A stretch of 64,000 nt of DNA, from positions 1 through 64,000 of the IMG/VR virus record IMGVR_UViG_3300025617_000018; one strand, given 5' to 3'. How positions within the stretch are numbered: position 1 is the first letter of the stretch; the number at the start of each line of letters is the position of its first letter. This DNA comes from a virus. Both the position numbers and the translations under genes were made by a program. Below are positions 60,731 through 62,966 of the stretch, piece by piece. Below the pieces are notes generated by a model. That model did no database searches. It was not told where the DNA came from and saw nothing but the letters and a program-made list of their open reading frames with translations.

Positions 60731-60814
60731 TGGAGTGAGCGACAGGACTTGAACCTGCATAGTCTTACGACACGGATTTGCAATCCGTTGCATAACCATT
60801 TCTGCCACGCTCAC
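60731..60814 (-). tRNA. tRNA-Cys (GCA)
   Basis: Minus-strand cloverleaf with a 7-bp acceptor (GTGAGCG/CGCTCAC), T73 (a Cys identity base) and encoded CCA. Anticodon loop TTGCAAA gives GCA. The anticodon arm matches bacterial tRNA-Cys. The variable region is 13 bases, GTC-GTAA-GAC-TAT, a 3-bp hairpin with a GNRA loop where tRNA-Cys normally has four or five bases. Confidence 0.92.
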
Positions 60815-60818
60815 ATAT

Positions 60819-60902
60819 TGGCACAGGGTGAGGGATTCGAACCCCCTGACTCTCGTCCTGGTTTTGGAGACCAGTGTGACACTCCAACTTCACCGACCCT
60901 GC
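60819..60902 (-). tRNA. tRNA-Trp (CCA)
   Basis: Minus-strand tRNA with acceptor GCAGGGT/ACCCTGT (one G-U), G73 and encoded CCA. Anticodon loop CTCCAAA gives CCA. D-stem GTGA/TCAC, T-loop TTCGAAT. The variable region is 11 bases and folds as GAC-GAGA-GTC plus A, again a 3-bp hairpin with a GNRA loop. Confidence 0.9.
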
Positions 60903-60913
60903 ATTGTCTTTAT

Positions 60914-60942
60914 ATAGTAAGTTCTTTTTTGAATGTTGTCAA
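60914..60942 (-). promoter_or_regulatory. Sigma70-type promoter before tRNA-Trp/Cys
   Basis: TTGACA (60937-60942), 17 bases, TACTAT (60914-60919) on the minus strand. Predicted +1 is about five bases upstream of mature tRNA-Trp, so this serves the Trp and Cys tRNAs. Confidence 0.75.
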
Positions 60943-60949
60943 CCAGAAA

Positions 60950-61024
60950 TGGAGCGGCGAAGGAGAATCGAACTCCTATCCACAGGGTGGAAGCCTGTTA
61001 TAATAGCCATTATACGACCGCCGC
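60950..61024 (-). tRNA. tRNA-Gly (TCC)
   Basis: Minus-strand class I tRNA: acceptor GCGGCGG/TCGCCGC, T73, encoded CCA, anticodon loop CTTCCAC (TCC), T-arm AGGAG/CTCCT with TTCGATT. Variable loop is the normal four bases (GGAT). Its 5' end touches the stop codon of the 68-aa gene. Confidence 0.92.
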
Positions 61025-61230
61025 TAAATTGCTATGCCTTCTAACAAGTTCCAACCGCCTGTAATACCGTGATCATTACCAGTCTTGATACAAACAGCAT
61101 ATGATCCAGTTTTATACTTACGGTTATAAGTTTCTAGGTACTTGTTACGCACGGCATAAGTGTAGTTTATGTTATCTGCTTCTCGTCTAATAGTTTTTCC
61201 ATTAGACATTTCTACTTCAACCCAATACAT
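61024..61230 (-). CDS. Small hypothetical protein (68 aa)
   Basis: A 68-aa protein with an N-terminal beta hairpin-like stretch (MYWVEVEMSNGKTIRREA) and a Tyr-rich helix. No family is recognised. It ends on the first base of tRNA-Gly and overlaps the exported-protein gene by one base, so mRNA and tRNAs are probably co-transcribed and separated by tRNA processing. Confidence 0.6.
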   Translation of the reverse strand: MYWVEVEMSNGKTIRREADNINYTYAVRNKYLETYNRKYKTGSYAVCIKTGNDHGITGGWNLLEGIAI

Positions 61231-61541
61231 TATATACTTTCACCTGGTTCAAAAAACTGGAAGTTTTGACCACTTGTAAATACGCAAGTAGTATTGTTGT
61301 CTTTGTTGACAACTAAAAAACTCCAAGTTTGTGTTTCCGTATTTACCCAAAGTGAATTATATAAAGGGCTGCTATTGCCTTGTGATATGCCCTCACTCAA
61401 AAAAACTAGTTCTTCATTGTACTTATTTTTAACAATATTCAGTACGTCTTGTGTTGGACCACACTGCACAGGTATTTCGTATGTTTTTGCTTTTACTGGT
61501 AGGACAATGAGCAAGAACAGTGCCAATACAATATATTTCAT
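61230..61541 (-). CDS. Exported protein with signal peptide (103 aa)
   Basis: A 103-aa protein with a clear signal peptide (hydrophobic residues 3-17, cleavage after VKA at about 18) and a small mature domain with two cysteines that may pair in the periplasm. No family is recognised. The ATG at 61541 has GGGAG six bases ahead; that ribosome site lies within a strong hairpin (61548-61562), so translation may be restrained. It is embedded in the tRNA cluster. Confidence 0.68.
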   Translation of the reverse strand: MKYIVLALFLLIVLPVKAKTYEIPVQCGPTQDVLNIVKNKYNEELVFLSEGISQGNSSPLYNSLWVNTETQTWSFLVVNKDNNTTCVFTSGQNFQFFEPGESI

Positions 61542-61547
61542 TTTAAT

Positions 61548-61562
61548 CTCCCGTCGCGGGAG
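61548..61562 (-). promoter_or_regulatory. Hairpin containing the ribosome site of the exported protein
   Basis: CTCCCG-CGA-CGGGAG on the minus strand: six G-C-rich pairs and a three-base loop. The 3' strand contains GGGAG, six bases before ATG 61541. Bases 61563-61644 upstream hold no gene I can support. Confidence 0.6.
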
Positions 61563-61644
61563 CAGTTTCAAGACTTACTCGGGTCCTACCTTTCCTGGGC
61601 ACCACTTGCTTGATTATTTTAAAAGAGAAACAAGACTCTTTAAA

Positions 61645-61721
61645 TGGTGCCGTTGAAGGGAGTCGAACCCCCAACCTTCTGGACCTAAACCAGACGCCTC
61701 TGCCAATTGGGCCACAACGGC
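61645..61721 (-). tRNA. tRNA-Leu by anticodon (TAG), class I body
   Basis: Acceptor GCCGTTG/CAACGGC, A73 and encoded CCA. Anticodon stem TCTGG/CCAGA with loop TTTAGGT gives TAG. The D-arm (AATTGGCAGA) resembles Leu tRNAs. The variable region is only five bases (AGGTT) instead of the long arm of bacterial tRNA-Leu, and the T-stem has two G-U pairs. Aminoacid identity is therefore less sure. Confidence 0.8.
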
Positions 61722-61738
61722 ATATATTGTATTTATAC

Positions 61739-61813
61739 TGGTGCTCACGGAGAGAATCGAACTCCCAATCTACGCATTACAAGTGCGTTGCCTTACCGTT
61801 GGGCCACGTGAGC
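61739..61813 (-). tRNA. tRNA-Thr (TGT)
   Basis: Class I tRNA on the minus strand: acceptor GCTCACG/CGTGAGC, A73, encoded CCA, anticodon loop CTTGTAA (TGT), four-base variable loop AGAT, T-loop TTCGATT. Confidence 0.92.
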
Positions 61814-61821
61814 ATACTATT

Positions 61822-61911
61822 TGGCGGAGATAGTAGGATTCGAACCTACGGAACGATTTCTCGTTCGACAAGTTAGCAACCTGCTGCTTTAAGCCACTCA
61901 GCCATATCTCC
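61822..61911 (-). tRNA. tRNA-Ser (GCT)
   Basis: Class II tRNA on the minus strand: acceptor GGAGATA/TATCTCC, G73, encoded CCA, anticodon loop TTGCTAA (GCT), T-arm GTAGG/CCTAC. The variable arm is a 6-bp stem GAACGA/TCGTTC closed by a GAAA (GNRA) tetraloop. Confidence 0.92.
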
Positions 61912-61914
61912 TTG

Positions 61915-62118
61915 TTCGGGACTGTCTTTCTGCTAGGCAAGGCGCAGTCATTCCGAATAAAAGTGGAGTGGGTGGAATAGGGTAACCACCAAGGAAGTAC
62001 TATCCGAAGTACCTTTCTTCACTAGACTTCCTACGTCCTGCACCTCGCTAAAGGACCGGCGCTACCGGCTTTCGGACTACCTTACCCCCCTTCGGCGAGA
62101 GGTATTCGGTCACACTCC
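61915..62118 (-). ncRNA. Candidate structured RNA A between tRNA-Ser and tRNA-Asn
   Basis: About 200 bases with no ORF, much richer in G+C than the surroundings. In minus-strand sense, GGAGTG (62118-62113) pairs with CACTCC (61970-61965), enclosing ACCTC/GAGGT, a CCGG-TAGCG-CCGG hairpin, an AGGTAC/GTACTT hairpin and GGTGG/CCACC. A second domain pairs TTCGG/CCGAA and GACTG/CAGTC (61915-61957). It lacks the tRNA-like end of tmRNA and the conserved cores of RNase P RNA as far as I can see. Processing from the tRNA transcript would give a discrete RNA. Confidence 0.5.
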
Positions 62119-62142
62119 TTTTAGAGTCCGTCGACTCTAAAA
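62119..62142 (-). other. 10-bp hairpin just after tRNA-Asn
   Basis: TTTTAGAGTC-GACG-GACTCTAAAA (minus strand), perfect 10-bp stem and 4-base loop, one base from the tRNA-Asn CCA. No T tract follows, so it is not a classical terminator; it may be a processing or protective element for candidate RNA A or the tRNA 3' end. Confidence 0.65.
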
Positions 62143-62143
62143 C

Positions 62144-62224
62144 TGGCTCCCAAGGTTGGATTCGAACCAACATTGCTTTCGCACGGATTAACAGTCCGCT
62201 GTATTACCTATCTACCACTTGGGA
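62144..62224 (-). tRNA. tRNA-Asn (GTT)
   Basis: Acceptor TCCCAAG/CTTGGGA, G73, encoded CCA; anticodon stem GCGGA/TCCGT with loop CTGTTAA (GTT); T-arm GTTGG/CCAAC. The variable region is 11 bases, GC-GAAA-GC-AAT, a mini-hairpin with a GNRA loop in place of the usual five bases. Confidence 0.92.
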
Positions 62225-62232
62225 ATAAAATT

Positions 62233-62372
62233 TATTAAAAAGCACACTAGGTTTACTATCCTCTTGCTACCTATTGTTGCCCTGCTATGCAGAACAGTTA
62301 CTAGTATCATAGGCTCTCCGCTTTGGACAAGGTTCAGCTTGCGGCCTCACGAGCCTAGTATGCTTTTTAATA
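62233..62372 (-). ncRNA. Candidate structured RNA B with 19-bp closing stem
   Basis: Bases 62233-62251 and 62354-62372 form a 19-bp helix. The single non-Watson-Crick position is G-U in minus-strand RNA but A-C... on the other strand (C-A), which supports the minus strand. Inside are a GGCTC/GAGCC arm extended by CCGC/GCGG and a CTGC-ATA-GCAG arm flanked by TGTT/AACA, giving a multibranch fold. The 140-base element fits exactly between the HAD gene stop (62376) and tRNA-Asn. No ORF or known RNA family was recognised. Confidence 0.6.
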
Positions 62373-62375
62373 TAC

Positions 62376-62966
62376 TTATTTCTGTCCTTCTACAACAATA
62401 TTATATATTTCTTTCCAGTTGCGAACTCGTGTCACTCCACTGTATTCGCCCTGGTTGTGTTTGTGATCCATTAACAAGGATACCAAACCTAAATCTCTTC
62501 CTACTAGTGCATTCTGTGGTTTGTCTTCGACCCAGTAGCAACCAGTATCTGCATACCATTCTAACACTTCGTCTTTGTCAGCACCTGTGTCTAGGTACAC
62601 ATATTTCTCAAATACACTATCTCCAAACATCTCACGCAGGTTCTTTGTGCGTAGGTGTTGCGAGTAGTCGTCGTTACTTAAACTTGTAATAGCATGGAAC
62701 ACATACCCGTGTTCACTGTGCAACTTCTTCACATAATGAATAGCATCTCGTAGTGGCGGAAGTTTACGAATCCAAGCACTTTCGTTGAACATACGAATAA
62801 GACGCATGCCTTCTACTTTTCCTAAACCATACTTGAGATCCATCAAGTATTCTGTTTCAAATCCTGGATTAACACTATAACCGTGTCGATTCATCCACTG
62901 TCCGAACGCATACTCCCAATCGAAGAGGACGCCGTCACAATCTACCAATATTGCCTTTTCTTTCAT
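62376..62966 (-). CDS. HAD-superfamily phosphatase, 5'(3')-deoxyribonucleotidase-like
   Basis: A 196-aa HAD hydrolase. Motif I is VDCDGVLFDW (D9 nucleophile, D11), motif II is the Ser of AITSLS, and motif IV is WVEDKPQNA. The cap and length fit the 5'(3')-deoxyribonucleotidase (NT5C) type, which dephosphorylates dNMPs. It could balance dNMP pools made by host-DNA breakdown. It is first in the unit that continues into candidate RNA B and the tRNAs, with a sigma70 promoter upstream and AAAGG before the ATG. Confidence 0.82.
   Translation of the reverse strand: MKEKAILVDCDGVLFDWEYAFGQWMNRHGYSVNPGFETEYLMDLKYGLGKVEGMRLIRMFNESAWIRKLPPLRDAIHYVKKLHSEHGYVFHAITSLSNDDYSQHLRTKNLREMFGDSVFEKYVYLDTGADKDEVLEWYADTGCYWVEDKPQNALVGRDLGLVSLLMDHKHNQGEYSGVTRVRNWKEIYNIVVEGQK

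Follow-up and report, generated by a model that had tools for sequence, protein, structure and literature searches.

Variable-region hairpins in class I phage tRNAs, among them tRNA-Cys, tRNA-Trp and tRNA-Asn, are repeatedly gained and lost

The window analysed here is a 64-kb stretch of a marine phage record totalling 64,286 bases; of the phage isolates, Phage C48C1 (Kyanoviridae) has the stretch closest to it in DNA. Using ARAGORN and Rfam, we identified seven tRNA genes on the minus strand at 60731–62224, those for Cys, Trp, Gly, Leu(UAG), Thr, Ser(GCU) and Asn (Table 1). CCA is encoded in all seven, and their RF00005 scores range from 39.8 to 68 bits against a cut-off of 29. Three of them, tRNA-Cys, tRNA-Trp and tRNA-Asn (39.8–58.6 bits), are intact class I tRNA genes with a short added hairpin in the variable region, where the anticodon stem ends on its 3′ side. 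An earlier note made from the letters had described these 11- to 13-base regions as mini-hairpins capped by GUAA, GAGA and GAAA; ARAGORN and Rfam agree with it on both place and content, and the GAAA-capped arm that it gave to tRNA-Ser is likewise present. Absent from that note was the tRNA-Leu of the cluster, an isotype that normally has an arm and here has none.

Table 1 Features of the tRNA cluster in the window.
Feature	Position	Strand	Evidence and details
tRNA-Cys (GCA), U73, CCA encoded	60731–60814	−	ARAGORN, Rfam; U73 from sequence
Cys variable region GUCGUAAGACUAU, 13 nt	60759–60771	−	Hairpin GUC-GUAA-GAC at 60762–60771, 3-bp stem; relatives without the 8-nt insert
tRNA-Trp (CCA), G73, CCA encoded	60819–60902	−	ARAGORN, Rfam
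Trp variable region GACGAGAGUCA, 11 nt	60847–60857	−	Hairpin GAC-GAGA-GUC at 60848–60857, 3-bp stem
tRNA-Gly (UCC), ordinary	60950–61024	−	ARAGORN, Rfam
tRNA-Leu (UAG), 5-nt variable region at 61673–61677	61645–61721	−	Arm absent from normally armed isotype
tRNA-Thr (UGU), ordinary	61739–61813	−	ARAGORN, Rfam
tRNA-Ser (GCU), ordinary class II	61822–61911	−	GAAA-capped arm GAACGA-GAAA-UCGUUC at 61850–61867
tRNA-Asn (GUU), G73, CCA encoded	62144–62224	−	ARAGORN, Rfam
Asn variable region GCGAAAGCAAU, 11 nt	62172–62182	−	2-bp hairpin GC-GAAA-GC at 62175–62182

Two other features adjoin these genes. Between tRNA-Asn and tRNA-Ser, the minus strand at 61961–62142 matches the manA RNA motif (RF01745) at 51.5 bits, just below its cut-off of 55.2; marine T4-like cyanophages are known to have RNAs of this class, frequently in presumed 5′ UTRs (PMC2864571). 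The 161 bases adjoining tRNA-Asn (62225–62385, minus strand) are predicted to form a long closed fold of −47.8 kcal/mol (z = −3.75) that no shuffled sequence equalled in stability; they have no match in Rfam and are possibly another structured phage RNA.

Structure prediction returned the full cloverleaf, arm included, as the minimum-energy fold of tRNA-Trp. The tRNA-Cys arm is present in the centroid fold, although the minimum-energy fold of this tRNA is not the cloverleaf, and in tRNA-Asn a third pair (U-A) forms in the predicted fold only if the anticodon stem opens. With two pairs, the Asn stem is the weakest of the three cases. The 3-bp stems of Cys and Trp reach the length of a class II arm (at least 3 bp), whereas the 2-bp stem of Asn does not, and the anticodons GCA, CCA and GUU place all three genes outside the class II isotypes Ser, Leu and Tyr. 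The short Asn stem and the Cys fold could be signs of decaying or mispredicted tRNAs, a reading that we regard as very improbable given the Rfam scores, the encoded CCA, compensatory changes in the stems, the existence of orthologues with the same arms, and the discriminator bases, required by CysRS, TrpRS and AsnRS, that are kept in armed phage tRNAs (U73 in 13/13 Cys, G73 in 8/8 Trp and in 46/49 Asn). A long arm combined with a non-Ser/Leu/Tyr identity, that of Cys, also occurs in bacterial selC*-tRNA-Cys and the allo-tRNAs, whose acceptor branch is 8/4 or 9/3 and whose anticodon stem is longer (PMC7609411). The window tRNAs differ from that architecture, with an acceptor stem of 7, a T stem of 5 and an anticodon stem of 5.

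Compared with these genes, the bacterial tRNAs sampled are short in the variable region. That bacterial Cys, Trp and Asn tRNAs normally have four or five bases there, as the earlier note had it, holds in the genomes that we sampled, the Cys sample being thin. Patterns blind to variable-region length matched tRNA-Asn in 68/80 Pseudomonadota genomes and 69/79 genomes of the Prochlorococcus phylum, and all but four matches were short; the four long ones, all cyanobacterial, read on inspection as the 3′ half of tRNA-Ser. For tRNA-Trp, 49/60 genomes were matched, every one short. The tRNA-Cys pattern matched only 11/60 genomes, a thin control, with short regions throughout apart from two odd long matches that proved on inspection not to be tRNA-Cys. 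A 17-base pattern for tRNA-Asn with a long variable region had no match in 299 genomes of Pseudomonadota, the phylum of Marinobacterium. It was used in the genome samples, a 14-base version being too loose for genome contigs. Phyla beyond Pseudomonadota and that of Prochlorococcus were sampled only through a scan of genome contigs with the long-region pattern, where an armed tRNA-Asn was found in none of 119 stretches among the matches listed.

In viruses, by comparison, arms are not unique to the phage of the window. Length-blind patterns for tRNA-Asn, -Trp, -Cys and -Thr were run over IMG/VR; we used 80 listed rows per scan and applied ARAGORN to the retrieved loci. Long variable regions occurred in 9/77 Asn, 1/69 Trp, 3/45 Cys and 5/63 Thr of the listed anchors, a few of them unstructured or doubtful. 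Across the listed loci, and with tRNA-Ile(UAU) excluded, 46 of 1,481 class I tRNAs were armed (at least 9 bases), distributed over 34/246 contigs, and Asn was the isotype most often armed. Variable-region lengths in the viral loci were bimodal (3–8 and 10–24), and no arm was seen in Arg (0/139), Gln (0/76), Val (0/58) or Phe (0/48). Armed tRNAs also tended to occur together: next to an armed Asn, 26/305 other class I tRNAs were armed, as against 42/1,344 elsewhere (P = 9 × 10⁻⁵), in a test that pools related contigs and counts the long-armed Ile(UAU) family among the others.

Cultured phages have such genes as well, already annotated as tRNAs. T5-like phages infecting Proteus, Providencia and E. 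coli encode tRNA-Asn with the arms GUUC-GAAA-GAAC, GUUC-GAAA-GGAC and GUC-GAAA-GAC, unlike T5, whose tRNA-Asn is short in the variable region and is no match for the armed gene of these relatives. Among Aeromonas isolates, Asn is armed in Aeh1 and PX29 and Thr in PX29 and Ah1, so that Aeh1 combines an armed Asn with a plain Thr and Ah1 a plain Asn with an armed Thr. Xanthomonas phage XacN1 has armed Asn, Cys, Thr, Lys and Gly; the main text of the XacN1 paper does not mention a variable arm, and our search of the open-access literature (subscription journals and preprints lay outside it) found no paper commenting on armed class I phage tRNAs.

The history of the arms was followed in 80 relatives retrieved through the neighbouring DNA ligase; those retrieved through a nuclease gene had been of no use as a conservation test, since apart from one identical cluster (L128) they had other tRNAs or none. 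The ligase relatives contain 21 distinct tRNA-Cys, of which 7 carry GUC-GNNA-GAC-UAU and 14 have 4–5 bases. Aligned to the armless Cys of L503 as reference, the Cys genes of the window and of L634 have a clean 8-base insert. The sister phages L800 and L802 share the order Trp-Pro-Ser-Cys, and Cys is armed in only one of them; elsewhere, over 70 bases, the two genes are four edits apart. The armed Cys state requires four changes on the ligase tree, three of them forced by well-supported branches, which points to at least three to four switches of the Cys arm; some could be horizontal replacements of tRNA genes. The Trp arm is identical in the window and L503 while the acceptor and D stems differ by compensating changes, which makes the arm no less conserved than the remainder of that tRNA. 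Within the window lineage, Trp arms read GAC-GAGA-GUC, UGCA-GAGA-UGCA and GAUUA-GAAA-UAAUC, in line with the earlier note's claim that stem sequences differ while the loop class is kept: the hairpin is retained, and usually its GNRA cap. That note had named relatives lacking the insert as evidence against its proposal. Close relatives without it do exist, but the pattern is one of repeated gain and loss in phage tRNAs and not of an artefact.

Is the hairpin itself selected? A plain shuffle control was too weak, 56% of shuffles folding some hairpin, and we used tetraloop and fixed-geometry tests instead. Of 120 different variable regions taken from armed class I phage tRNAs, 83 form tetraloop hairpins of at least three pairs versus 27 expected by shuffling, and 57 have GNRA loops versus 1.1 expected. 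With the geometry fixed, 231/327 stem positions pair (71%), compared with 44% on average, and 52% at most, when 3′ strands were permuted 1,000 times among equally long arms. The co-variation in the mini-stems that the earlier note suggested looking for is thus present, and together with the excess of hairpins it supports the view that the hairpin is under selection. For the GNRA caps the case is different. Docking, on an RNA receptor or a phage protein, had been proposed for these loops, and the class is indeed kept amid differing stems in Trp and most Cys arms. GNRA caps, however, close 112/152 phage tRNA-Ser arms and 57/83 class I arms, shares that do not differ (P = 0.45), and an orthologous Cys (L799) that equals that of L797 outside the variable region has the non-GNRA loop GUUA. 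The share in phage tRNA-Leu arms is 66/123, that of class I being somewhat higher. Because they are equally frequent in tRNA-Ser, the GNRA loops look like generic stable hairpin caps without a docking signal, and after comparison with Ser, Leu and Tyr arms we consider docking very improbable.

In having an arm between the anticodon and T stems, of at least 3 bp, and in GNRA caps, frequent also on the arms of phage Ser and Leu, these tRNAs resemble class II tRNAs (Ser, Leu and bacterial Tyr). They differ in the isotypes that are armed (Cys, Trp, Asn and others), in the optional presence of the arm between orthologues, and in geometry: armed class I tRNAs mostly leave 3–4 unpaired bases 3′ of the arm, whereas Ser and Leu leave 1–2. 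A spacer of at least three bases is found in 67/83 armed class I tRNAs as against 22/152 Ser and 10/123 Leu (32/275 together); the Cys and Asn of the window follow the class I pattern, while Trp, with a spacer of one base, does not. From the spacer we infer that the hairpin probably sits between positions 44/45 and 46, so that positions 46–48 stay available to the class I core. The arm might instead tune modification or recognition by host tRNA enzymes, displacing the modifications at 46–47 or avoiding quality control or mischarging, and the long spacer would then orient it unlike a Ser arm and disfavour SerRS. We regard this as unlikely, for preservation of core positions 46–48 can simply explain the spacer and the window Trp has only one base there.

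Arms are also missing where they would be expected. In viral loci retrieved by length-blind patterns, 62/165 Leu lack an arm, compared with 0/126 Ser and 1/65 Tyr; among bacterial Leu(UAG), the arm was present in 16/16 matches. All 14 other distinct Leu tRNAs of the ligase relatives have variable regions of 11–13 nt, unlike the Leu of the window. SerRS needs the variable arm, which bacterial LeuRS largely does not. That arms are missing from many Leu and from no Ser fits these needs and suggests that the genes remain under charging constraint.

Some antiphage defences act on this part of the tRNA. Retron-Eco7 cuts the variable loop of tRNA-Tyr, and the tRNA-Tyr of T5 is a phage tRNA that evades it (PMC11555353); Septu PtuAB cuts the tRNA-Tyr variable loop as well (PMC13096335). 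A further report proposes that phage tRNAs evade tRNA-targeting defences and describes anticodon-loop changes (PMC10264068). Like such evading tRNAs, those of the window look functional; unlike them, they carry a whole added hairpin on class I Cys, Trp and Asn. Their variable regions, the part that is cut in tRNA-Tyr, differ from those of all sampled bacteria, which may not include the host. Evasion of host tRNA-cutting defences is a role that the arms may plausibly have, though we put it somewhat short of an even chance. Host synthetases would still charge armed tRNAs and ribosomes still use them, since a changed variable region is tolerated at these steps, and the arm would alter the side of the tRNA at which host nucleases acting on tRNAs bind or cut. 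Replacement tRNAs unlike those attacked would thereby be available to the phage. The GNRA loop would simply be a stable cap for a stem of three or four pairs. Most arms (Cys and Asn here, not Trp) leave at least two unpaired bases before the T stem. Evasion would be expected to yield a phage-restricted, changing and isotype-crossing remodelling of the variable region, such as is seen, and armed tRNAs do share contigs. The published variable-loop cutters, on the other hand, target tRNA-Tyr and not Cys, Trp or Asn, and the Asn arm of the window has only 2 bp.

Nearly as plausible is neutral tolerance, in which the variable region, the most permissive part of a tRNA, lets stable, self-contained hairpins survive in a spare phage tRNA so long as they do not disturb the core, the arm has no function and GNRA caps are retained as stabilisers of short stems. 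Gain and loss, absence from hosts and a kept structure are equally expected from tolerance, and the two explanations fit the observations almost equally. Bimodal lengths would follow if unstructured long loops were unfit, and the use of GNRA matches that of tRNA-Ser. Arms occur in many isotypes; those that lack them entirely (Arg, Gln, Val, Phe) are ones in which sampling or the demands of the synthetase may account for it, and the armless fractions of Leu, Ser and Tyr are as if synthetase needs alone decided. What tolerance accounts for less well is that no arms were found in the sampled bacterial genomes despite the redundant tRNA copies of many bacteria, and that armed tRNAs cluster in the same phages. 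Returning to evasion, we offer more tentatively the broader idea of a switch of variable-arm class in both directions. Phages would give arms to class I tRNAs such as Asn, Cys, Thr, Lys, Met and Trp, would take them away from Leu, and would in this general and fast-changing way counter host enzymes that recognise or cut tRNAs.

By the textbook rule, arm length follows amino-acid identity: Ser, Leu and Tyr have long arms and the rest short ones. Phages, culturable isolates among them, break the rule in both directions. Defences that cut the variable loop open the question of what the arm does, and natural armed and armless pairs of one tRNA offer a test of its role in charging, decoding and resistance to tRNA-cutting immunity. 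Annotation pipelines and isotype models built from cellular tRNAs should expect armed class I and armless Leu forms.

Two further viral tRNAs with enlarged variable regions lie outside the window. In tRNA-Ile(UAU), 32/63 rows have an arm of 20–25 bases, mostly with the loop CAGAUUA or a close variant (for example L643:12174, L585:4811 and L835:4433, with about 30 more loci). We set these arms apart from the armed class I tRNAs, their loop being a conserved sequence and not GNRA; the loop motif beside a T arm occurred in 0/120 Pseudomonadota genomes. Such conservation suggests a specific binder, and the Ile(UAU) arms may perhaps prove more interesting than the GNRA arms. The tRNA-Glu of Aeromonas phage phiAS5 (L077:2681) carries a second copy of the anticodon arm in its variable region (UCGCC-CUUUCAC-GGCGA), and a related region of Aeh1 (114904–115008) is annotated as a tRNA-Glu of 105 bases.
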